This document shows positions 42,119-54,613 of a DNA stretch of 64,000 nucleotides, piece after piece. Source of the stretch: Microbacterium halotolerans (GTDB lineage Bacteria; Actinomycetota; Actinomycetes; Actinomycetales; Microbacteriaceae); NCBI RefSeq assembly GCF_003569805.1, contig NZ_KZ984051.1:435779-499778 (forward strand). Direction: 5' to 3'. The notes under the pieces are model-generated. The model saw nothing but the letters and a program-made list of their open reading frames with translations. It had not been told where the DNA came from and did not search any database. A program made the translations under genes and the position numbers. Numbering within the stretch: position 1 is the first letter of the stretch; each line of letters starts with the position of its first letter.

Positions 42119-42361
42119 CTACCCGTGCTTGCCGAACCGCTGGTAGGCGGCTTGCCTGGTGGTGTCGAGCGCCGCTCCGATGACCGTCCAGGAGTCACCT
42201 GCGGCGCGCGCGTCCGCGACCGCGGTGCGCAGCTCTTCCTCCGCTTCACGGGCGGCCTTCTGAGCGGCGATGATGCGCCGGAAGTGCGTCGCGTCACGCG
42301 CGGGAGTCACCGCAGGATCGAGCTGATCAAGACCTGTCTCGTCAGTCTGGCTTGTCTTCAT
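42119..42361 (-). CDS. Small helix-turn-helix-like protein
   Basis: 80 residues from the ATG at 42361, which has AGGAGG 8 bases upstream; the GTG at 42370 overlaps that site and is less likely. The N-terminus is polar. A helical segment ([28 protein letters not shown]) leads to [25 protein letters not shown], a helix-turn-helix pattern common in short actinobacterial DNA-binding proteins. It is divergent from the crRNA-like element and the cas operon. Whether it regulates cas genes is unknown. Confidence 0.78.
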
Positions 42362-42400
42362 GGTGTCCACCTCCTCTCACAGACCGGGCCGCTACCCTGG

Positions 42401-42477
42401 TCACGCCCTGCATCGCAGGGATGATCCAGCTGGCGGATACGCATCTCAGTTTTCCCTGCCTGAGCAGGGATTTACTC
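42401..42477 (+). ncRNA. Predicted crRNA-like regulatory RNA (CreR/CreA type) made of two degenerate CRISPR repeats and a short spacer
   Basis: Read in the crRNA sense, the array repeat has a CCCCGC/GCGGGG stem followed by ATGATCC. Here CCCTGC-ATC-GCAGGG is followed by ATGATCC (42406-42427), and GTTTTCCCTGC-CTGA-GCAGGG (42449-42469) is followed by ATTTACTCC. In both stems the same C-to-T and G-to-A pair of changes keeps the base pairing, as expected for a Cas6e substrate. The enclosed 20-nt pseudo-spacer (42429-42448) starts GCTGGCGGATACGCATCT and matches 42522-42539 at 17 of 18 positions. Processing would give an 8-nt 5' handle, a 20-nt guide and a 21-nt 3' hairpin. The RNA's promoter was not identified; a TACCCT at 42393-42398 is a weak -10 candidate. 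Confidence 0.68.
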
Positions 42478-42518
42478 CGACACTACCCTGGCATGCATGC
42501 TCATGCAAGAGCATCAGT

Positions 42519-42539
42519 AACGCTGGCGGTTACGCATCT
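42519..42539 (+). promoter_or_regulatory. Predicted Cascade binding site (PAM AAC plus pseudo-protospacer) upstream of the cas promoter
   Basis: GCTGGCGGTTACGCATCT (42522-42539) equals the pseudo-spacer except at position 9, so the eight seed positions are perfect. AAC (42519-42521) sits directly 5' of it on the non-target strand. AAC is the PAM expected here, because the base joining repeat and spacer in the array is mostly C in the crRNA sense. A 32-base Cascade footprint from 42522 would reach the -35 box at 42551. A CTACCCTGG (42483-42491) and a hairpin (42497-42514) precede it, echoing the arrangement before the pseudo-spacer. Confidence 0.62.
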
Positions 42540-42550
42540 GGTTCTCAGGC

Positions 42551-42578
42551 TTGACTCTTCTTGCCTGGTTCGTATACC
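42551..42578 (+). promoter_or_regulatory. Predicted promoter of the cas operon
   Basis: TTGACT (42551-42556) and TATACC (42573-42578) are separated by 16 bases, a good vegetative sigma-factor pair. Transcription would start near 42585, leaving about 40 bases before the cas3 GTG at 42626, with CGGAG as ribosome-binding site. It is the only strong promoter seen in the cas3 upstream gap (42362-42625). Confidence 0.62.
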
Positions 42579-42625
42579 GTCATCCTGATCAGCCGCCATA
42601 TCTACGTCTGCAACGGAGCCTCTCA

Positions 42626-45532
42626 GTGACCACCGACATCCACGACGCTGACGTCGCACACCTCAGTGCGGCCGCACGGTCGGTGTGGGCGAAGAGCTGG
42701 CCGAACCCGTGCATCGATGGAGAGATCGAGCGGTGGCTCCCGCTGCATCGGCATCTTCTCGACACTGCTGGCATCGCAACCCGACTCTGGGATCACTGGC
42801 TCGCTCCGCATGTGAAGGAACTCCTCGCGAAAGCCGTGGGGTCGCCCGAGTCGGCGCGCACGCTCGCGGTCTGGCTCGCCGGGGCGCACGACGTCGGAAA
42901 GGCATCCCCGGCATTCGCCGTGCAGGTGCGCCCCCTCGCGAAGCACATGACCGCGCAGGGACTGCGCATGGACGCGTCACTGGCCGACACAGAAGAACGC
43001 AGGAAGGCACGTCACGAACTCGTCGGCTACCTCGCAGTTCGAGCATGGCTCGTCGAGCGCTGGGGATTCGACAGTCGGCAGGCGAAGAAGATCGCGAGCG
43101 TGATCGCAGCGCACCACGGCCGACCGCCGAGCGAGGCCGCCGTTGCCGACGCCGACGGCCAGACGCGCCTTGTCGGCGACGGGCTCTGGGCCGACGTACG
43201 CGAGGATCTGCTCGACACGATCACGGCGTCGGTGACCGCGCCGGAAGACATCGCATCCTGGGAACGCTCCCCGCTCCCCCGGCACGCTCTCGTACTGCTC
43301 AGCGCCTTCGTCATCGTCACCGACTGGGTCGCCAGCAACGACCACCTGTTCCCGCTCGCAGAACTCAGGCAGAGCGATGTCGAAACGCATGGTCGCGTCG
43401 AGCGCGCGTGGACCGAGATCGATCTTCCGGCTCCGTGGAAGGCGCGGTCGCCGGATGACGACGACGAACTCTTCGACCATCGCTTCGAGCTTCCCTCCCC
43501 GCGCCCCATGCAGTCGGCGGTGATGGAACTCGCCCGCACATGTGAGACGCCTTCTCTGTTCATCGTCGAGGAGAACATGGGGGCGGGCAAGACCGAGGCC
43601 GCGCTCGCCGCCGCGGAGATCCTGGCGTCGCGCTTCGGCCTGAGCGGCGTATTCATCGGGCTGCCGACTCGGGCCACTGCCGACGGCATGTTCTCCCGGG
43701 CGATGACGTGGGCCGATCATCTCGGACTCGAGACCCCACTCAACGTCTTCCTCGCACACGCCAAAGCGTCTCTCAACTCCGACTTCGACAAGCGACAGCA
43801 AGATGCCCGCTTTCGAAGCATCGGCGACCGCCACACCACTCGCAGATCTCGCGATACCTGGGGGGAGCTCGTCGTCGCTCATAACTGGTTCAGCAGCCCG
43901 AAGCGAGGCCCGCTCGCCGATCTCGTCATCGGCACGATCGATCAGGCGCTCGTCGGTGCGCTGCGCAGCAAGCACGTCATGCTCCGGCATCTCGCACTTG
44001 CGGGAAAGGTGGTGATCTTCGATGAGATACATTCCTTCGACGCTTTCACAGACACGTATATCGAGCGCATCCTGAACTGGCTCGGCTCGTACGGAGTCCC
44101 CGTCATCATGCTGTCCGCGACGCTTCCATCCGAAAAGCGCAAGGCCTTCATCGCCGCCTACGAGCAGGGCAGGGTCGCCGACGCTCCACCCCGCAGAGGC
44201 ACTAGGGGAGCGGCCGGCCGGAGAGCCGTCGCAACCGCAGACCCGCTCGCCATGCTCGACGGGAATATCGGCTATCCGGTCATCACGGCGTCGTCCCCGA
44301 CGGGCCCACCCAGAATCGTCACACCGTCGCCTTCCAGCAAGCCGAAGGAAGTCGCCGTCGAACGGGTCCCCGACGACCTCTCCGTCCTGGCCGACACACT
44401 CTTCACGGCGCTCGAAGGGGGCGGAACCGCGGTCGTCATCCGCAACACCGTGACTCGCGTGCAGGAGACCGCCGCCTTCCTGCGCGCGCAGCGCGACGAC
44501 ATCCCCGTCGTCGTCACACACTCCCGCTTCCTCGCCCGAGACCGCGCGAGAAAAGACCGGGAACTGCTCGACCTTTTCGGCAAGGAAGGCGAGCGACCAG
44601 ACCGGATGATCGTGGTCGCGTCTCAGGTCGTCGAGCAGTCGCTCGACATCGACTTCGACCTCATGGTCACCGACGTCGCCCCTGTCGATCTCATTCTCCA
44701 GCGCGCGGGCCGCCTGCACCGCCACGGCTTCCGCACCCGACCTGAGCGGCTGCGCGAGCCGCGGCTCGTCCTCGCCGGAGTCGACTGGGAGGAGACCCCG
44801 CCCGCTCCCGTACGAGGGAGCATCGCGGTCTACGGCCAGCACATCCTGCTGCGCACGCTCGCCGCGCTGGAGGGTCGCGAACGCATCGCCCTGCCCGATG
44901 ACATCCCCGTGCTGGTGCAGAAGGTGTATGGGCCTGATGAAATCCATCCGCTGTCCTGGAATGAGAAGGCGCAGTCCGCGCGAGCCGAGTTCGGCGCACT
45001 CCAGGAGGACAAGCGCCGCCGCGCCGAGACCTTCCAGCTCGCCGCCGACGGCGCCGAGGGGAGCCTGATCGGCTGGATCGATGCCTCGGCAGGAGACGCC
45101 GCTTCGGATTCCGAGGCCCAGGCCGCCGTTCGCGACGGCGAGGAGACCCTCGAAGTGCTCGTCATTCAGCAGAAGGACGGCGTGTGGGTGACTCCCGACT
45201 GGCTCGACGGCGAAGACGGGAACATCCAGCTTCCTGACAATGAGCCGCCGGATGGCCGGCTGACGCGCATCGTGCTCGGCTGCGCTCTTCGCCTTCCCGC
45301 CGCAATGTGCCATCCGGGTCGGATCGACGCGCAGATCGCCGACCTCGAATCGCAGTACCCGATCCAGGCGTGGCACGGCAGTCATGCGCTGCGCGGTGAG
45401 CTGGTCCTCCCCCTCGACGCCGACCGCTCCGGACGCCTCGGCGACGACATCGTCCGCTATGACCCAGAAAACGGCTTCTCATACTCGAGAACGCCCGCAT
45501 CCATCCCTGCCGAGAGCGAGGCCCGCTGGTGA
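42626..45532 (+). CDS. cas3: CRISPR-associated helicase/nuclease Cas3, type I-E
   Basis: 968 residues from a GTG with CGGAG upstream; a TTG 25 codons earlier lies on the predicted -35 box and is rejected. The N-terminal HD nuclease has LHRHLLDTAGIATRLWDHW near residue 40 and LAGAHDVGKASPAF near 90. The superfamily 2 helicase follows: ENMGAGKTEAALAA (about 317), VVIFDEIHSFDAF (about 465), MLSATLPSEKRK (about 497) and LILQRAGRLHRHG (about 690). A C-terminal accessory domain completes the protein. Cas3 is recruited by target-bound Cascade and degrades the DNA strand. It overlaps cse1 by GTGA. Confidence 0.96.
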   Translation: MTTDIHDADVAHLSAAARSVWAKSWPNPCIDGEIERWLPLHRHLLDTAGIATRLWDHWLAPHVKELLAKAVGSPESARTLAVWLAGAHDVGKASPAFAVQVRPLAKHMTAQGLRMDASLADTEERRKARHELVGYLAVRAWLVERWGFDSRQAKKIASVIAAHHGRPPSEAAVADADGQTRLVGDGLWADVREDLLDTITASVTAPEDIASWERSPLPRHALVLLSAFVIVTDWVASNDHLFPLAELRQSDVETHGRVERAWTEIDLPAPWKARSPDDDDELFDHRFELPSPRPMQSAVMELARTCETPSLFIVEENMGAGKTEAALAAAEILASRFGLSGVFIGLPTRATADGMFSRAMTWADHLGLETPLNVFLAHAKASLNSDFDKRQQDARFRSIGDRHTTRRSRDTWGELVVAHNWFSSPKRGPLADLVIGTIDQALVGALRSKHVMLRHLALAGKVVIFDEIHSFDAFTDTYIERILNWLGSYGVPVIMLSATLPSEKRKAFIAAYEQGRVADAPPRRGTRGAAGRRAVATADPLAMLDGNIGYPVITASSPTGPPRIVTPSPSSKPKEVAVERVPDDLSVLADTLFTALEGGGTAVVIRNTVTRVQETAAFLRAQRDDIPVVVTHSRFLARDRARKDRELLDLFGKEGERPDRMIVVASQVVEQSLDIDFDLMVTDVAPVDLILQRAGRLHRHGFRTRPERLREPRLVLAGVDWEETPPAPVRGSIAVYGQHILLRTLAALEGRERIALPDDIPVLVQKVYGPDEIHPLSWNEKAQSARAEFGALQEDKRRRAETFQLAADGAEGSLIGWIDASAGDAASDSEAQAAVRDGEETLEVLVIQQKDGVWVTPDWLDGEDGNIQLPDNEPPDGRLTRIVLGCALRLPAAMCHPGRIDAQIADLESQYPIQAWHGSHALRGELVLPLDADRSGRLGDDIVRYDPENGFSYSRTPASIPAESEARW

Positions 45533-47166
45533 GTGACCCCTCACGCCGCTTCAACCTGATCAACGAACCGTGGATCGCCGTCCGCTACCTCGACGGACAT
45601 TCCTGCGACGTATCGCTGCGTACAGCGTTCCACGACGCCGCCCAGATCCGCGATATCGGAGGAGAGCTGCCCACGCAGTCGTTCGCGATTCTCCGACTGC
45701 TGCTCGCGATCTTCTACCGTGCCACGGTCAGTGACGTGGAGCCCGGCTGGAGCCGCGACGCGTGGCAGGAGGACTGGGAAGACGGCCTGCCGCTCGATCT
45801 CATCGACGAGTATCTGGATGAGGTCTCCGGCCGATTCTGGCTGCTCGATCCTGAACGTCCGTTCTTCCAAGTGGCGGGCCTCGCCACGGCGAAAGGCGAA
45901 GTCAAAGACACCATCTCCCTCATCATGGACCTGCCGAGCAACAATCGCCTGTTCACGACCAGAGCGGGCGTCGAGTCGCTTCGACTTCCGTTCGCGGAGG
46001 CGGCTCGCTGGCTCGTGAACGCGCAGGCCTTCGACCCATCCGGGATCAAATCGGGGGCGCTCGGCGACGACCGCGTCAAGGGCGGCAAGGGGTATCCGAT
46101 CGGCGTCGCATGGTCGGGTCTGCTCGGCGGCATCCAACTCGAGGGAGGCTCGCTCGCGCAGACTCTGCTACTCAACCTCGTGATGCCGGATGAGGGCGAT
46201 GAACTCTCCTTCTCCCGTCTGGGCGACCTGCCCGTGTGGGAACAAGACGACCCCGACACGGCAGCAGAGCGCGGCGGGCATCCCGCGGGCCCGGTGCGGC
46301 TGTTCACCTGGCAGTCACGCCGCATCCGGCTCGTCGCAGACGGTGACAGGATCATCGGATGCGTACTCGCCAATGGCGACGCCCTCACGCCACAGAACCA
46401 GTTCTCCCACGAGACCATGACCGCGTGGCGGTACAGCGAGCCGCAGTCGAAGAAGGCGGGAGCGACCACATACATGCCGCGGGAGCATCGCCCGGAACGG
46501 GCGTTCTGGCGCGGCATCGGTGCCCTGCTCCCCCAGCACGACGCTGGTGGAAGGTCGAAGCCCCCGGCGACGGTCAATGCACTGGCACGCAGGCAGAACG
46601 ACGGTCTGCTCGCGAAGGACCTCCTCATACGGGTGCGCGCCGTCGGCGTCGTCTACGGCAGCAACAACTCGGTCGTCGACGACATCGTCGACGACCAGCT
46701 CAGCTTCTCGACCGCCCTGCTGCGCGAGAAGAACGCCGCGCTCGCGGCCGAGGCGGAGAACGCCGTCTCGCTCGCCGAGGGCGGCGTTCTCGCCCTCAAA
46801 CGCCTCGCGCAGAATCTCGATCGCGCAGCGGGAGGCGACGGGGAGGCGCCGTGGTCACGCGCCGACGAGACCGCCTACGCGGCTCTCGACGGCCACTACC
46901 GCAAATGGCTCGCCGGGCTCGACGACACGACCGATCCCATCGACGCGATCGGCGCATGGAAGGCGACGGCGTACCGGGTCATCCGGGGCCTCGGCACGGA
47001 GCTCATCCGAGACGCCGGCCCTGCCGCGTGGGCGGGCCGCGAGGTCTCGACTCCGAGAGGCACAGAGTTCATCACTACACCGCGCGCCGAGGCCTGGTTC
47101 CTCAGAGCGCTGCGCACCGCATTCGGCGCTCCCGCGCCGCATCAGATCAAGGAGGTCCTCACATGA
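45529..47166 (+). CDS. casA: Cascade large subunit Cse1/Cas8e (CasA)
   Basis: 545 residues beginning FNLINEPWIAVRYLDGHSCDVSLRTAFHDA, the highly conserved Cse1 N-terminus. The middle contains FWLLDPERPFFQVAGL and TRAGVESLRLPFAEAARWLVNAQAFDPSGIKSGA, and the C-terminal part is a helical bundle. Cse1 reads the PAM and recruits Cas3. The GTG start overlaps the cas3 stop and the end overlaps cse2 by ATGA. Confidence 0.96.
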   Translation: MSDPSRRFNLINEPWIAVRYLDGHSCDVSLRTAFHDAAQIRDIGGELPTQSFAILRLLLAIFYRATVSDVEPGWSRDAWQEDWEDGLPLDLIDEYLDEVSGRFWLLDPERPFFQVAGLATAKGEVKDTISLIMDLPSNNRLFTTRAGVESLRLPFAEAARWLVNAQAFDPSGIKSGALGDDRVKGGKGYPIGVAWSGLLGGIQLEGGSLAQTLLLNLVMPDEGDELSFSRLGDLPVWEQDDPDTAAERGGHPAGPVRLFTWQSRRIRLVADGDRIIGCVLANGDALTPQNQFSHETMTAWRYSEPQSKKAGATTYMPREHRPERAFWRGIGALLPQHDAGGRSKPPATVNALARRQNDGLLAKDLLIRVRAVGVVYGSNNSVVDDIVDDQLSFSTALLREKNAALAAEAENAVSLAEGGVLALKRLAQNLDRAAGGDGEAPWSRADETAYAALDGHYRKWLAGLDDTTDPIDAIGAWKATAYRVIRGLGTELIRDAGPAAWAGREVSTPRGTEFITTPRAEAWFLRALRTAFGAPAPHQIKEVLT

Positions 47167-47786
47167 CCAGCCACCGCGAACGAGCCGACAGGGTGGAGGA
47201 GTTCACGGAGCAGCGCGTACGTTCGCTCCTGAACGGCTACCGCGGCAATCACAGCAAGGAGGTCGCGGAGCTCGCAAAGCTCCGCAGAGGAGTCGGCAGA
47301 CGCGTCGACGCAGACATCGAACTCCTCGGCATCGCCTTGGCAGGCCCGGATGTCGACATCGTCGATCCGTCGCAGTGGGCCGAAGACGACCCGCTGCCCG
47401 AAGAGAGGGCTGCTTTCACGGCGATCACTCTCTTCGCCCTGCACCAGCAGTCGCGACGAGACGCATCGATGCACCACCGCGGCTACTCCATCGGCCGATC
47501 GACACGCCTACTCGCCCGCAAGGTGGATCGGGACTCGGTACGTCAGCGCTTCACTGCCCTCGGCACCGCCACCACGTGGGACGAGACCGTGCAGCATGCA
47601 CGCGGCCTCATTCAGCAGCTCCGCCAGCACACCATCCCGCTCGACTACGGGCGCTTCGCACGCGACCTCTTCGATCTCCACGTCGGATCCGGAGACCGCG
47701 TGCGGATGACCTGGGGGCGCGACTTCTACCGCCTGCATCATCCAGAAGACGATTCGGATGCCTCGACCGAGACATCAACCGACTGA
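47163..47786 (+). CDS. casB: Cascade small subunit Cse2/Cas11 (CasB)
   Basis: 207 residues from the ATG overlapping the cse1 stop. It contains AELAKLRRGVGRRVDADIE near residue 35, FTAITLFALHQQSRR, then MHHRGYSIGRSTRLLA, and the helical C-terminal LDYGRFARDLFDLHVGSGDRVRMTWGRDFYR. These match Cse2, which is present in two copies per complex and stabilises the displaced strand. The gap to cas7 is 28 bases. Confidence 0.94.
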   Translation: MTSHRERADRVEEFTEQRVRSLLNGYRGNHSKEVAELAKLRRGVGRRVDADIELLGIALAGPDVDIVDPSQWAEDDPLPEERAAFTAITLFALHQQSRRDASMHHRGYSIGRSTRLLARKVDRDSVRQRFTALGTATTWDETVQHARGLIQQLRQHTIPLDYGRFARDLFDLHVGSGDRVRMTWGRDFYRLHHPEDDSDASTETSTD

Positions 47787-47814
47787 CCGCCGACTTCGGC
47801 AGAAAGACAGCATC

Positions 47815-48966
47815 ATGACACGCACCATCGTCGACATCAGCGTCCTCCAGACCGTTCCCCCGTCGAACATCAATCGCGATGACACCGGCAGCCCGAAGAC
47901 CGCGGTCTATGGCGGCGTCCGGCGCGCCAGGGTCTCGAGCCAGGCCTGGAAGCGGGCCGCACGACTCGACTTCAGCGAGCGCCTCGACACCTCGGATCTC
48001 GGAACCCGCACCAAGCGCGTGGCCGAACTGCTCGCCGACGCGATCACGAAACGGAACCCGGCCGTCGACGCCGATCGCGCCCAGGAACTTGCGGAGTTGG
48101 TCTTCAAGGCAGCGGGGATCAAGCTCACGGCACCACGCAAGTCGAAGGATGAGGAATCACTCCCCCCGGAGGCCGGCTATCTGCTCTTCCTGAGCGCGCG
48201 GCAGATCGAGAGGCTCGCGGAGGTCGCGGTCGACGCAGAAGCATCAGAGGATGCCGCCGCCTCGATCAAGGCCGCCAAGGTCAAGACTCTGCTCGATCTG
48301 GAGCATTCCGTCGACATCTCACTCTTCGGTCGGATGGTCGCCGAGGCCACGGATCTCAATGTCGATGCCGCGGCACAGGTCGCGCATGCATTGAGCATCC
48401 ACCCGGTCGAGAACGAGTTCGACTACTACACCGCGGTCGACGACCACAAGAGCGCAGATGACGAGGAGGATGCGGGTGCGGGCATGATCGGCACAGTCGA
48501 GTTCAATTCGTCAACGCTCTACCGCTACGCGACGGTGGACGTCGATGCGCTGCGCCGCAACCTCGGCGATGCGTCGGATGGCGCGTCGGCGACGCAGCGC
48601 GCGGTGGAGGCCTTCGTCGAGAGCTTCGTGCGGAGCCTGCCGAGCGGCAAGCAGAACACCTTCGCGAACCGCACTCTCCCCGACGCCGTCGTGATCTCGG
48701 TGCGCGACAGTCAGCCCGTCAATCTCGTCGGCGCGTTCGAAGAGCCCGTCGCGGGCACTCACCGCATCGCCGAGGGTGCTCGACGGCTGGCGGAGTATGC
48801 CCAGAGCGTCGACGGCGCCTACGGGACTGCTCCCGTCTCCGGGTGGGTCGTGCGCGTATCCGACGCGGCGGCGCCCCTCGATTCCCTCGGCGAGCGCGTC
48901 GGACTCGACGACGCCGTCGCACAGCTCGGCCGTGCCGTCGCCGAACGCCTCACGGACACACCGTGA
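47815..48966 (+). CDS. cas7e: Cascade backbone subunit Cas7e (CasC)
   Basis: 383 residues starting MTRTIVDISVLQTVPPSNINRDDTGSPKTAVYGGVRRARVSSQAWKRAAR, a diagnostic Cas7e N-terminus. The fold has EFNSSTLYRYATVDVDALRRNLG and FVRSLPSGKQNTFANRTLPDAVVISVRDSQPVNLVGAFEEPV. Six copies form the filament along the crRNA in known type I-E complexes. The end overlaps cas5 by GTGA. Confidence 0.96.
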   Translation: MTRTIVDISVLQTVPPSNINRDDTGSPKTAVYGGVRRARVSSQAWKRAARLDFSERLDTSDLGTRTKRVAELLADAITKRNPAVDADRAQELAELVFKAAGIKLTAPRKSKDEESLPPEAGYLLFLSARQIERLAEVAVDAEASEDAAASIKAAKVKTLLDLEHSVDISLFGRMVAEATDLNVDAAAQVAHALSIHPVENEFDYYTAVDDHKSADDEEDAGAGMIGTVEFNSSTLYRYATVDVDALRRNLGDASDGASATQRAVEAFVESFVRSLPSGKQNTFANRTLPDAVVISVRDSQPVNLVGAFEEPVAGTHRIAEGARRLAEYAQSVDGAYGTAPVSGWVVRVSDAAAPLDSLGERVGLDDAVAQLGRAVAERLTDTP

Positions 48967-49736
48967 CCACGCTGCTGCTCGAACTCGCCGCGCCACAGCA
49001 GTCATGGGGGTCTCGCAGCCGTTTCGCGTCACGGGCGACCGAGCTCGCACCAACCAAAAGCGGAGTGATCGGACTCATCGCCGCGGCGCTCGGCATGGAA
49101 CGATCCGATCCCCTGGACCGTTTCGTCGGGCTTCGATTCGGCGTGCGCATCGATCAGCCGGGACGAGTCGAACGTGACTTCCAGACCGCCAGGTCTTTCG
49201 ACGGATCGACCTCGTTCCCGCTGTCGCACCGCTACTATCTCGCTGACGCTGTGTTCGTCGCAGCCCTGGATGGGCCGTCCGAAGAGCTGAATGCGTACGC
49301 AACCGCCATCCGCCGTCCGCAGTACCCGCTCTACCTGGGGCGCAGGGCGTTTCCGCCGTCGGGGCCGATCCACACGGTCCTGGTGGAGGAGCCGCTTGAA
49401 GCGGCTCTGCAGACGCACCCTTGGCGAGCACGTGCCCGTACCCGCAACCGCACACACGGAACTCGGGTGGAGGTCGAAGTGGTCCGCGATGCCAAGCAGA
49501 ACGAAGCACCGGATCACTCGCGCGACGATGTCCCGGTGAGCTTCGATCCTCGCCGCCGGGAGTACTCCGCGAGGGACGTCGTCGTCGAGACGATCGAGAT
49601 CGATCATCCGGACCCGCCTGCTCAGTCAGCGCCGGAGTCGCACAGTGAACCGCCAGTTCGACGCCACGGCGACCAGCTGCTCGGAGAGCCCACCGACCAC
49701 GACCCAGAGATCCTCCTGGCCGACGAAGAGGTCTGA
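48963..49736 (+). CDS. cas5e: Cascade subunit Cas5e (CasD)
   Basis: 257 residues from a GTG overlapping cas7. LLLELAAPQQSWGSRSRFASRATELAPTKSGVIGLIAAALG is the Cas5 RAMP core with the G-rich region; YPLYLGRRAFPPSGPI is also conserved. Cas5e binds the 5' handle of the crRNA at the foot of the complex. The C-terminal 40 residues are polar and not part of the fold. Cas6e begins immediately after the stop. Confidence 0.94.
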   Translation: MTTLLLELAAPQQSWGSRSRFASRATELAPTKSGVIGLIAAALGMERSDPLDRFVGLRFGVRIDQPGRVERDFQTARSFDGSTSFPLSHRYYLADAVFVAALDGPSEELNAYATAIRRPQYPLYLGRRAFPPSGPIHTVLVEEPLEAALQTHPWRARARTRNRTHGTRVEVEVVRDAKQNEAPDHSRDDVPVSFDPRRREYSARDVVVETIEIDHPDPPAQSAPESHSEPPVRRHGDQLLGEPTDHDPEILLADEEV

Positions 49737-50408
49737 ATGTTCTTCTCGCATTTCCAGTTCAACCCCGCCCGGCGCGGAGCGCAACGTCTGCTTTCGTCTC
49801 CGCATGCACTGCATGCTGCTGTGCTCGCCGGGTTCCCGGATCCGTCGGCCACGATGAACGGTCGCGTGCTGTGGCGGCTGGACAACAGCGCGCACGTCGC
49901 GAAACTGTTCATCGTCAGTCCGACGCAGCCGGATCTCACGCATCTCGCCGAGCAGGGCGGATGGCCCACGCTGCCCGACTCGTGGGGCTCGAAACCGTAC
50001 GAGAAGCTGCTCGACCGCGTTGCGAACGATCAGCGGTACCGCTTCCGTCTCACCGCGAACCCCGTGCACAATGAGCGGCGACCGGATGGACAACGCGGCA
50101 AGCCCCGCGGACATGTCACGGTCGCTCAGCAGGAGAAGTGGCTTCTCGATCGTCAAGAGCGTCATGGCTTCGCCATCTCGGAACTCCCCGGCTCAGGATC
50201 CGATCGCAGCGAATACGACGTCGTCGTGCGGGACAGGAAGCTCCTGGTCTTCCATCGTCGCGAGACGAAGGTGACGTTGCGAACCGCATCCTATGAAGGC
50301 ACTCTCACCGTCACAGATCGCGAGGCCTTCGTCGCTTCGCTGTGCCTCGGCATCGGACGGGCGAAGGGATACGGCTGCGGCCTGCTCACGGTTGCACCGG
50401 TGATGTGA
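49737..50408 (+). CDS. cas6e: CRISPR RNA endonuclease Cas6e (CasE)
   Basis: 223 residues starting directly after the cas5 stop. MFFSHFQFNPARRGAQRLLSSPHALHAAVLAGFP places a His at residue 26, the position of the catalytic His in characterised Cas6e. The C-terminal glycine-rich loop is GIGRAKGYGCGLLTVAPV. The enzyme cuts at the base of the repeat hairpin and stays on the 3' end of the crRNA. It should also process the two degenerate repeats upstream of cas3. Confidence 0.95.
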   Translation: MFFSHFQFNPARRGAQRLLSSPHALHAAVLAGFPDPSATMNGRVLWRLDNSAHVAKLFIVSPTQPDLTHLAEQGGWPTLPDSWGSKPYEKLLDRVANDQRYRFRLTANPVHNERRPDGQRGKPRGHVTVAQQEKWLLDRQERHGFAISELPGSGSDRSEYDVVVRDRKLLVFHRRETKVTLRTASYEGTLTVTDREAFVASLCLGIGRAKGYGCGLLTVAPVM

Positions 50409-50411
50409 ATC

Positions 50412-51356
50412 ATGGCCACTGGCGCACGGCCACCTGACCTTCCCGACCTGGTCCGGGTGCAGGATCGGCTCACCTTCGTTTACCTGGAACGCTGTCATAT
50501 TCATCGCGACGCGAACGCCATCACTTCCACCGATGACCGCGGCACGGTGCACATTCCGGCTGCGGCACTCGGTGCTCTCCTGCTCGGTCCAGGAACCACC
50601 GTCTCGCAGCAGGCAATGCTGCTCATGGCTGAGAGCGGGTCGACCGTGGTGTGGGTCGGCGAGGAAGGCGTGCGCTATTACGCGCATGGGCGCTCCCTCG
50701 CGCATTCCTCCCGCCTACTCGAGGCACAGGCCAAGCTCGTCACCAACCAAAGCCGTCGCCTCGCTGTTGCCAGGGAGATGTACACGATGCGCTTCCCTGG
50801 GGAGGACACTTCCGGCCTCACCATGCAGCAGCTGCGCGGCAGGGAGGGCGCGCGCGTGCGCCGCGCCTACCGGGAGCACTCGCAGCGGACAGGAATCCGG
50901 TGGACCCGGCGCGACTACGACGTCGACGACTTCGAATCGAGCGATCCGGTGAACAAGGCACTGTCCGCGGCGAACACGAGTCTCTACGGCGTCGTGCACT
51001 CGGTGATCGTCGCGCTCGGCTGCTCGCCTGGGCTAGGGTTCGTCCACACAGGACACGTCCGTTCTTTCGTATACGACGTGGCCGACCTCTACAAGGCTGA
51101 CCTCACGATCCCGCTCGCATTCGATCTGGCTGCGGAGGAACCGTTCGACATCGCCGCCGCCGCACGACATGCCCTCCGCGATCACTTTCACGGTGGGGCG
51201 TTCCTCGATCGATGCGTACGCGACATCCGGCATCTGCTGCTGCCCGATGAGACCGCCGACGCACTGGAGGCAGGGATGAGCGAGAACGTGGTGAGCCTCT
51301 GGGACGGATCCCGACGGACCGTGGCAGGCGGCACCTCGTACGACGAGGACACGTGA
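50412..51356 (+). CDS. cas1: CRISPR integrase Cas1, type I-E
   Basis: 314 residues. It contains RVQDRLTFVYLERCHIHRD, GTVHIPAAALGALLLGPGTTVSQQAMLLMAESG, VVWVGEEGVRYYAHG and ANTSLYGVVHSVIVALGCSPGLGFVHTGHVRSFVYDVADLYK, matching Cas1e. The Glu/His/Asp metal ligands of the C-terminal domain are visible in the GFVHTGH and DVADLYK stretches. Cas1 with Cas2 inserts new spacers. The end overlaps cas2. Confidence 0.96.
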   Translation: MATGARPPDLPDLVRVQDRLTFVYLERCHIHRDANAITSTDDRGTVHIPAAALGALLLGPGTTVSQQAMLLMAESGSTVVWVGEEGVRYYAHGRSLAHSSRLLEAQAKLVTNQSRRLAVAREMYTMRFPGEDTSGLTMQQLRGREGARVRRAYREHSQRTGIRWTRRDYDVDDFESSDPVNKALSAANTSLYGVVHSVIVALGCSPGLGFVHTGHVRSFVYDVADLYKADLTIPLAFDLAAEEPFDIAAAARHALRDHFHGGAFLDRCVRDIRHLLLPDETADALEAGMSENVVSLWDGSRRTVAGGTSYDEDT

Positions 51357-51733
51357 TGGTCGTGCTCGTACTGTCTGCGTGCCCGCCTGGACTGCGGGGC
51401 TATCTGACGCGCTGGCTGCTGGAGATCTCGGCCGGCGTCTTCGTCGGGAAAGTCTCCAAGCGGGTCCGGACGCTGATGTGGGAACGCACGATTGAGATGG
51501 TCAGTACCGGGCGCGCCATCATGGTGTTCTCTGCACGGAATGAGCAGGGGCTCTCTTTCCTTGTGCACGGTCATCACTGGGAACCTGTTGACATCGACGG
51601 CATCACGCTGATGCTGAGGCCGGCGGAAACGCGCTCGAAACGGTCGGCACGGCGCGACGACGCAATCGCCGGCGGCGAGGGAAGACCGCCACGCACCGGA
51701 TGGAGCAAGGCGGCTCGCCGGCGGGCGCGGTAG
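51353..51733 (+). CDS. cas2: CRISPR-associated protein Cas2, type I-E (CasB-type ferredoxin fold)
   Basis: About 126 residues; translation may begin at GTG 51353 or ATG 51356, both overlapping the cas1 stop. VVLVLSACPPGLRGYLTRWLLEISAGVFVGKVSKRVRTLMWERTIEMV is the Cas2e core, and GLSFLVHGHHWEPVDIDGITLMLRP follows. A basic tail of about 30 residues (ETRSKRSARRDD to the end) extends beyond the fold. It forms the scaffold of the Cas1-Cas2 integrase. Confidence 0.95.
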   Translation: MMVVLVLSACPPGLRGYLTRWLLEISAGVFVGKVSKRVRTLMWERTIEMVSTGRAIMVFSARNEQGLSFLVHGHHWEPVDIDGITLMLRPAETRSKRSARRDDAIAGGEGRPPRTGWSKAARRRAR

Positions 51734-51847: not shown

Positions 51848-54613
51848 TGACGGGGATGCGGGGAGCACATCGTCGACGTCGGCCCTGTCATGGCAGGCGG
51901 GGATCATCCCCGCGGATGCAGGGAGCACCGAACTCGATCCGGATGACCGCCCGATTCACCCAGGATCATCCCCGCGGATGCGAGGAGCACACCACGAAAC
52001 GCTTCACCTCGCGCGTGGCATGGGGATCATCCCCGCGGATGCGGGGAGCACGTCGCTGCTGCTGACGGGCGAGGCGACGCCGGGGGATCATCCCCGCGGA
52101 TGCGGGGAGCACGACCTCGACACCATCACCCGCCGCAAGTGGATGGGATCATCCCCGCGGATGCGGGGAGCACGATGAGCCGCGCTACGGCTTTGGCGAT
52201 CGTCTGGGATCATCCCCGCGGATGCGGGGAGCACGCCGCCGAGGAAGTCGCCGCTGTGCTGGGGCAGGGATCATCCCCGCGGATGCGGGGAGCACACCTG
52301 CGGGGCGAGTGACGTGAGTGCAGTCGACGGATCATCCCCGCGGATGCGGGGAGCACGACGCTGAGCGGGATCCCACGAACTGGGAGCAGGGATCATCCCC
52401 GCGGATGCGGGGAGCACTGGTTCGGGGCGGAGCAGGTCGATTCGGTGTCGGGATCATCCCCGCGGATGCGGGGAGCACACCGGCAGCGCCTCCACCCGCA
52501 GATCCTCGACAGGATCATCCCCGCGGATGCGGGGAGCACCGCAAGTTCGACGGGCGCCGCGACTCGGCTGACGGATCATCCCCGCGGATGCGGGGAGCAC
52601 GAAGCCACGTGGCTGGAATGGCGCGCCCGCGCGGGATCATCCCCGCGGATGCGGGGAGCACTCGAGCGCCTGCGCGGCGTAGTCGCGGCTCTTGGGATCA
52701 TCCCCGCGGATGCGGGGAGCACCCGCATCGGCACATCCCGCATCAGGAACACCACGGATCATCCCCGCGGATGCGGGGAGCACTCGAACTGCAGAGCGAG
52801 CCTGGTGGTGTCCATGGGATCATCCCCGCGGATGCGGGGAGCACTCGAACTGCAGAGCGAGCCTGGTGGTGTCCATGGGATCATCCCCGCGGATGCGGGG
52901 AGCACGACGGCGGCTTTGCGAAGCTGACCGAGGACCAGGGATCATCCCCGCGGATGCGGGGAGCACTCCCTGATCCGGGCGGCGATCTTTCGACCATCGG
53001 GATCATCCCCGCGGATGCGGGGAGCACGCAGAGACGCGCGCCAGGGGTGCTTGCTCTGAGGGATCATCCCCGCGGATGCGGGGAGCACAAGTCGTTGTGC
53101 GCGATGACGACCAGCTTCGCGGGATCATCCCCGCGGATGCGGGGAGCACAGAAGAAGCCGCGACCGCTCAGCGCCACCAGCGGGATCATCCCCGCGGATG
53201 CGGGGAGCACTGGCCCTCGCGCAGCACGATCAGGCTGCCCGTGGGATCATCCCCGCGGATGCGGGGAGCACGTCTCCCCGAATGAGAGAGGTGTAATCGC
53301 CCCGGGATCATCCCCGCGGATGCGGGGAGCACGTCGTTATCAATCCCGGTGCGGAGCAGCCCCAGGGATCATCCCCGCGGATGCGGGGAGCACCGGCCCA
53401 GCACGGCGCAGCGGGAGCAGCGCGCCGGATCATCCCCGCGGATGCGGGGAGCACCGCGTGTGCGCGTTGCCCGAGAACGTCGATCCGGGATCATCCCCGC
53501 GGATGCGGGGAGCACGAACGCGCGCATACCGCTCCTCATCGCGGATAGGGATCATCCCCGCGGATGCGGGGAGCACCGAATCCCTGCGTGGCGGCCTGCT
53601 GGCCCTCGGGGATCATCCCCGCGGATGCGGGGAGCACCGCGTGTGCGCGTTGCCCGAGAACGTCGATCCGGGATCATCCCCGCGGATGCGGGGAGCACCA
53701 GTGGTGCTGCTCTTCTCGCTCTGGCTCCTGGGGATCATCCCCGCGGATGCGGGGAGCACATGTGGGTTCCCTAGCCCTTCAGAAACTTGGCGGGATCATC
53801 CCCGCGGATGCGGGGAGCACACCGTCTGTGTCTGCCCTGGGGACGACGCGAGCGGATCATCCCCGCGGATGCGGGGAGCACAACCAGTGGACGGCGCATT
53901 CGATCCGAGCGACGGGATCATCCCCGCGGATGCGGGGAGCACGCCCTGGCGGATGCGGTCCGCGAGGGCGACGAGGGATCATCCCCGCGGATGCGGGGAG
54001 CACGCCCGTATGTGTTCCCCCGGGTGATCCCGGGCGGGATCATCCCCGCGGATGCGGGGAGCACTCATCGACTCGTGTCATCAGACTTCACTCTCGGGGA
54101 TCATCCCCGCGGATGCGGGGAGCACGAACCGCTACTTCGTCCGCACACACTCTTGCCGGGATCATCCCCGCGGATGCGGGGAGCACGATCAGCGCGGGCC
54201 AGTCCTCGGACGGCTCCGGGGATCATCCCCGCGGATGCGGGGAGCACGCCACGAAGGCTGCCATCGAGCGGTACCAGTCGGGATCATCCCCGCGGATGCG
54301 GGGAGCACCTGCTCGAGTCCCTCGCGTGCAGCGGGTCCGCCGGATCATCCCCGCGGATGCGGGGAGCACGGCTCGGGCTTCCTCGGCGCGACGGAGGTGT
54401 CGGGATCATCCCCGCGGATGCGGGGAGCACTGCCATCAGGGAGGTGGCGGACCGTGCGCAAGCGGATCATCCCCGCGGATGCGGGGAGCACAGTACCAAC
54501 ACCACTCCGTCCGGCGAGATCTGGGGATCATCCCCGCGGATGCGGGGAGCACTGGACTGATGACGACCCCTCCCTCGCCGAACGGGGATCATCCCCGCGG
54601 ATGCGGGGAGCAC
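51841..54613 (-). CRISPR. Type I-E CRISPR array, 46 repeats and 45 spacers, probably transcribed on the minus strand
   Basis: The plus-strand repeat is 28 bases, starting GGATCATCCCC and ending GGGGAGCAC, with the CCCCGC/GCGGGG palindrome inside. From 52024 to 54613 there are 43 near-identical copies at an exact 61-base period, so spacers are 33 bases. Three worn copies precede them: 51841-51868 (first half lost), 51901-51928 and 51963-51990 (one change each), with 32, 34 and 33 base spacers. In crRNA-sense, I-E repeats end GGGGAT plus handle, which matches the minus strand here. The base next to the repeat is usually G (plus strand), so the repeat is effectively 29 bases. Two spacers occur twice. 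Confidence 0.97.

Follow-up and report, generated by a model that had tools for sequence, protein, structure and literature searches.

A crRNA-like element in front of cas3 in Microbacterium halotolerans, a probable Cascade-guided autorepressor of the type I-E cas operon

The window analyzed here (the whole stretch of 64,000 nucleotides from Microbacterium halotolerans, contig NZ_KZ984051.1) carries a type I-E CRISPR-Cas locus with all Cascade genes, so that a cognate effector is encoded in it. A short element with two degenerate repeats lies upstream of cas3. The features are as follows, with the basis of each assignment in brackets.

42393..42398, plus strand: possible -10 box of a small RNA, TACCCT (by eye)
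42400..42427, plus strand: psiR1, degenerate type I-E repeat with a 6-pair hairpin and an intact ATGATCC handle, GTCACGCCCTGCATCGCAGGGATGATCC (sequence, fold and comparison with the array repeat)
42429..42448, plus strand: guide of 20 nt, GCTGGCGGATACGCATCTCA (sequence)
42449..42476, plus strand: psiR2, second degenerate repeat, hairpin kept and handle lost, GTTTTCCCTGCCTGAGCAGGGATTTACT (sequence and fold)
42421..42469, plus strand: predicted mature crRNA-like RNA of 49 nt, beginning AUGAUCCA and made of handle, guide and psiR2 hairpin (assuming Cas6e-type cleavage after the hairpin)
42519..42521, plus strand: AAC, predicted PAM (comparative AAN excess, array base after the repeat, literature)
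42522..42541, plus strand: target of the guide, matched at 17 of positions 1-18 and unmatched at positions 19 and 20 (sequence)
42551..42580, plus strand: putative cas3 promoter, TTGACT, 18 nt, TACCGT (42575), or alternatively TATACC at 42573 with a 16-nt spacing (read by eye and compared with the related loci L092, L093 and L094)
42626..45532, plus strand: cas3, the proposed regulated gene, GTG start chosen by comparison, frame open back to 42521 (NCBIfam, ORF comparison)
45529..51733, plus strand: cse1, cse2, cas7, cas5, cas6e, cas1 and cas2 (NCBIfam)
51901..54613, minus strand: type I-E array of 45 repeats, repeat GTGCTCCCCGCATCCGCGGGGATGATCC, proposed source of competing crRNAs (repeat analysis)

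Among named organisms, the closest Cas3 proteins belong to Microbacterium. A Cas3 relative at an E-value of 1e-60 or better was found in seven of 366 Microbacterium genomes, including that of M. halotolerans itself. Two spacers of the array are present twice each (52817-52905 and 53488-53698), one in neighbouring units and one three units apart. A divergent 80-aa protein is encoded beside the element (42119-42361, minus strand), and its HTH_23 helix-turn-helix match was weak and below the cut-off (E-value 0.038). A protein judged similar to it by eye lies beside the cas3 end of another locus (L096).

The sequence-only reading had described two degenerate repeats with CCCTGC/GCAGGG hairpins, an ATGATCC handle and a 20-nt pseudo-spacer, and this description was exact to the base (42400-42476). 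Both psiR1 and psiR2 have the stem CCCTGC/GCAGGG, as against CCCCGC/GCGGGG in the array repeat; a T-A pair replaces the C-G pair of the array repeat in one place, in both arms and in both copies of the element. The psiR2 hairpin had a z-score of -3.38. The handle is kept in psiR1 (the A at 42428 is the last base of the 8-nt handle begun there) and the hairpin is kept in psiR2, and these are the parts that a mature crRNA needs. The element is not a canonical array with near-identical repeats and standard spacers, as genome-wide no sequence besides the 45 array repeats matches the repeat at three or fewer mismatches and the guide has 20 nt, compared with 32 nt after the PAM-derived base in the array of the window. 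When the whole 79-nt stretch was folded, the two identical stems paired with each other in the minimum-energy fold (the precursor can misfold), and part of the guide was folded within the predicted mature RNA. No -35 box for the small RNA was recognised upstream of TACCCT, and an Rfam search gave two chance-level matches, none relevant to the element.

Guide positions 1-18 match 42522-42539 at 17 positions with AAC directly 5', as the earlier reading had it, and the sole mismatch is at position 9. With three or fewer mismatches allowed, chance would place the guide 20-mer 0.03 times in the window, and it was found at itself and at the target only. In the 3.5-Mb genome there was no further site with two or fewer mismatches, and the next best sites had three over 17 scored bases.

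The PAM argument was based on the array base after the repeat, the comparative AAN excess and the literature. In E. coli, the base after the repeat derives from the last PAM base. In the window it is C in 36 of the 45 units, G in seven and T in two, which is consistent with AAC provided that the final PAM base is retained here too. AAN has been reported as the effective PAM of the I-E system of Streptomyces avermitilis (PMC12231136). A comparison of the window array with 50,697 phage records gave three weak records and no usable protospacer, and the phage matches for the arrays of L045 (77 records) and L036 (64 records) were repeat-driven or weak among the matches listed.

It had also been claimed that the target lies 11 bases ahead of a good -35 box, TTGACT, belonging to the only strong promoter before cas3. 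The distance is correct (TTGACT occupies 42551-42556, 11 nt after 42539), but the quality of the promoter is softer than stated. A sigma-70 consensus promoter scan and a terminator scan found nothing in 42300-42700, and thus the promoter call rests on inspection by eye and on three Microbacterium relatives (L092, L093 and L094). In these relatives TTG hexamers and TA-N3-T boxes were seen 17-18 nt apart, and the putative -35 box follows the target start by 30-34 nt, compared with 29 nt in the window (all by eye). About 40 nt separate the expected start site of the putative promoter from the cas3 start downstream, and no ORF of at least 25 codons with a ribosome-binding site was found between target and cas3 in the window.

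For the comparison with other cas3 loci, up to 1000 nt upstream of cas3 were scanned on both strands for hairpins with a handle-like heptamer behind them, and the guide next to each was then used to look for targets. Each pair was scored over guide positions 1-17 without 6 and 12 (maximum 15), and the null was obtained by placing guides on the regions of other loci. The loci were taken from named genomes (the best 80 matches) and from further genomes. In set 1 (100 loci including the window; 1209 candidates, of which 1091 were not repeat-like), 16 AAN pairs scored at least 12/15 against 0.85 expected and nine scored at least 13/15 against 0.04 expected, with a null from about a quarter of the locus pairs; this set was not blind, because the filter was settled after six relatives had been viewed and one of the 16 pairs is that of the window. 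When the same thresholds were applied to set 2 (81 fresh loci, scored with the four default handles only and not with repeats derived from the loci themselves), 16 AAN pairs scored at least 12/15 against 1.65 expected and 10 scored at least 13/15 against 0.20 expected.

The 16 pairs represent 15 loci in each set, as L048 and L126 have two targets. One guide faces two AAC-flanked targets, which in L048 start at -561 and -610 when counted from the cas3 match and in L126 at -322 and -367; the double targets are about 45-49 nt apart. Only the AAN counts were used, since the any-PAM score-15 counts in set 2 were inflated by an N run in L133; its other any-PAM high scores stem from repeats and tandem copies. 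Among L001-L115, 100 loci were scored. Three (L008, L011 and L115) were not entered, eight (L005, L006, L007, L009, L010, L097, L111 and L114) were excluded because they are fragments or match weakly, and L012, L051, L054 and L058 were left out as they lie on the same contigs as L092, L101, L113 and L103, respectively. Of L116-L199 (84 loci), 81 were scored and L117, L120 and L122 were duplicates; for set 2, the loci of 32 were retrieved out of 47 further matches that had been listed without them.

Altogether, a pair of at least 12/15 was present in 33 of 181 loci, and the other 148 had none at the set score. Four of the six assessable Microbacterium loci (L001, L092, L093 and L094) had an AAN pair, and L095 and L096 had none. 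With the guides of the four loci, scores were 12-15 of 15 when each was placed on its own target and 2-7 when it was placed on the target of another. When guides were swapped among 29 loci, scores of at least 12 were reached only between L197 and L198 and between L181 and L191, both close relatives. As far as these sequences go, guides differ between lineages and their targets change in step. Conservation among relatives had been named beforehand as a check; matching is indeed kept in relatives with changed sequences, but it is absent in L095 and L096.

The mismatches within the pairs were then counted in such a way that the position under study had no part in selecting the pairs, which gave 19 pairs for positions 6 and 12. 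Mismatches occurred in 17 of the 19 pairs at position 6 and likewise at position 12, while the rates were 5-32 % at positions 1-5, 7-11, 13 and 14 and 38-53 % at positions 15-20. In I-E Cascade, every sixth crRNA base is flipped out and the seed comprises positions 1-5, 7 and 8 (PMC5904413). The concentration of mismatches at the flipped-out positions indicates that selection has preserved recognition by Cascade. The window pair matches at positions 6 and 12 and agrees with this rule without displaying it, because its sole mismatch in the first 18 bases is at position 9. Across loci, the comparison supports the PAM, seed and every-sixth-base insensitivity expected of recognition by Cascade.

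Behind the guide, 31 of 34 pairs have a repeat-like hairpin, although hairpins were searched for and single cases may be chance. Guide lengths were 20 nt (n = 10), 21 (5), 22 (1), 30 (2), 32 (7), 33 (4), 34 (1) and 16 (1), and form two main classes about 12 nt apart. The Cas7 step is six bases, and the class difference is about twice this step. For region matching and guide swaps, 29 of the 34 pairs were kept; those of L167 and L055 and the second guide of L162 were dropped as they have no psiR2-like hairpin, that of L074 for its 16-nt guide and that of L121 for its resemblance to an ordinary array unit. The 13 long guides match their targets at 98 % (positions 1-5), 88 % (7-11), 78 % (13-17), 51 % (19-23), 20 % (25-29) and 41 % (31-33), and the 16 short guides at 100 % (1-5), 90 % (7-11), 66 % (13-17) and 36 % beyond position 18. 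Thus a partial R-loop of about 17-23 bp would result either from a short guide or from a long one whose pairing has faded. Of 29 loci, 12 had a TANNNT box in the 20 nt before the psiR1 hairpin, compared with 8 % at random places. The element of L092 (M. suaedae, about 1138-1277) has three repeats, with a 21-nt guide unit followed by a spacer of about normal length, and may represent a stage between an array and a two-repeat element.

We consider it probable (about 0.85) that the element at 42400-42476 is a CreR-type autorepressor, that is, a crRNA-like RNA of about 49 nt which loads into the organism's own I-E Cascade, parks it at the cas3 promoter and represses the cas operon. This was the proposal of the sequence-only reading, and it gained support from the unique near-match behind AAC, from guide-target matching kept in other lineages and from the mismatch footprint at positions 6 and 12. 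The element would be transcribed from near 42405, and Cas6e would cut at both hairpins to release the RNA. With a 20-nt guide, a shortened Cascade with fewer Cas7 units would be expected. This complex would pair at 42522-42541 behind AAC, and its partial R-loop would not fire Cas3. Bound Cascade would obstruct RNA polymerase at the cas promoter and lower transcription of the operon. Such a loop would match the supply of Cascade to that of crRNAs, because the crRNAs of the 45-repeat array would compete for the same Cas proteins. Scarcity or blocking of Cascade would open it and, as expected of CreR, competing crRNAs or anti-CRISPR proteins would relieve the repression.

In E. coli I-E, 5 bp are reported to be enough for Cascade binding and more than 18 bp to be required for interference and primed adaptation, so that partial pairing binds Cascade without interference (PMC5904413). 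In Haloarcula I-B, the transcript fell to about 11 % with a 24-nt spacer and to 65 % with a 20-nt spacer, and no primed adaptation was reported with spacers of 20-24 nt (PMC10989794). From these precedents, mild and titratable repression would be expected. Off-target Cascade binding in E. coli left nearby expression unchanged (PMC5904413), which counts against repression here. Steric repression may also be weak, as the R-loop would end about 11 nt upstream of the putative -35 box.

The degenerate repeats, and the two Microbacterium loci without a recognisable pair, would also suit a decaying remnant, in which two leftover repeats surround a shortened self-derived spacer with no present function. 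However, decay would break the pairing at random, whereas matching is kept at the paired positions and lost at 6 and 12, and it is kept in lineages with different guides. Both hairpin arms have changed together in both repeat copies, and what remains is what a mature crRNA requires. We therefore regard a remnant as highly improbable. Two other explanations were rejected. Plain duplication of the target would neither spare positions 6 and 12 nor change in step between lineages; antisense pairing with the cas mRNA leaves the 6/12 pattern unexplained, and the expected start site is downstream of the target.

The element could otherwise be the CreA antitoxin of a CreTA or CrePA module, with a target promoter that drives a toxic RNA or protein and is kept off by Cascade. 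The RNA and target logic of these modules is of the same kind (PMC9458426, PMC12737573), and a small membrane ORF stands between target and cas3 in some Streptomyces-type loci. In the window, the absence of an ORF of at least 25 codons with a ribosome-binding site in this place and the short distance from the expected start site to cas3 speak against it, though a toxic RNA is still conceivable, and we rate an antitoxin as highly improbable. Activation, in which Cascade bound upstream of the -35 box would raise the activity of the cas promoter, agrees with the target start 29-34 nt upstream of the putative -35 box in four Microbacterium loci (by eye), outside the core promoter. But the targets of L039 and L002 reach or overlap the putative -35 box (by eye), and the CreR RNAs reported so far repress (PMC13131331, PMC12737573); it is the least probable reading that we considered.

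Small ORFs were observed in front of cas3 at several other loci. Five Streptomyces-type I-E loci (L038, L043, L048, L044 and L129) have ORFs of 48-63 aa with a single membrane span and a shared AP-x-W stretch, located for example at 9516-9701 in L038, 9637-9828 in L043 and 819-977 in L048. In these three, the ORF is preceded by an AAC target that belongs to a crRNA-like element. No Pfam match above the cut-offs was obtained for the three small membrane ORFs searched. The AP-x-W ORFs may encode membrane toxins under Cascade repression, or each may simply be the gene with which the operon begins. Unrelated hydrophobic ORFs (58, 71 and 31 aa) lie between an AAC target and cas3 in L090, L170 and L185, where the guides have 30-32 nt. 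In L113 (about 1140-1312), a 55-codon ORF behind the ribosome-binding site GAGGAGGAG separates cas3 from an AAT target that has its mismatch at position 6.

CreR RNAs are described as autorepressors of types I-B, I-E and V-A that act through partial promoter complementarity (PMC13131331, PMC12737573; primary report Liu et al. 2023, Cell Host Microbe 31:1481), and Cascade-guided cas autorepression is thus a known mechanism. As in CreR, a short crRNA-like unit of degenerate repeats and one guide lies here near the cas operon, the guide is partly complementary (17/18 behind AAC) to DNA just upstream of the putative promoter of that operon, and no candidate for a coupled protein toxin was seen between target and cas3. 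The host and sequence (Microbacterium) and the 20-nt guide differ from CreR as described in these papers, and the function of the present element is a predicted one. CreTA and CrePA share the two degenerate repeats, the guide and the direction of Cascade to a nearby promoter (predicted here), but as described it is a toxin RNA or protein that is expressed from the promoter they target (PMC9458426, PMC12737573), whereas the next gene here is cas3. The scaRNA of Francisella novicida is likewise an ectopic repeat-derived RNA that turns a CRISPR effector, Cas9, into a gene repressor (a role predicted here), although that account concerns a type II effector and a different target (PMC9458426). Racr phage RNA anti-CRISPRs also comprise repeat-like RNA outside an array (PMC10651486); these are described as solitary repeats in viral genomes, in contrast to the two repeats, guide and target at a host cas locus.

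Among the literature matches listed, there was no such element in Microbacterium and no CreR in actinomycetes, in a search that left most subscription papers outside its reach. Judged against CreR as described in the later papers, the recurrence across Actinobacteria, the six-base footprint and the two guide-length classes appear to be new.

Regulatory roles of CRISPR-Cas in actinomycetes are listed as still to be found in a review of 2025 (PMC12231136). The window locus and its relatives argue for such a role, as guides and targets co-change and spare the bases that Cascade pairs. More broadly, and at slightly under even odds, actinobacterial I-E systems may harbour a fast-diverging family of Cascade-guided regulators that form deliberately partial R-loops. 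Short guides, 12 nt or two six-base steps below the 32-nt standard, would autorepress cas, as in the window. The pairing of full-length guides would fade after about position 23, and several of these guides lie upstream of small membrane proteins before cas3 that are perhaps Cascade-repressed toxins. If the regulatory role of the window locus and its relatives is true, it would be a small feedback circuit and a natural form of programmable repression beside an active Cas3, and such elements could be searched for in other genomes by a signature of AAN, seed, mismatches at 6 and 12 and a guide of 20-22 or 30-34 nt.
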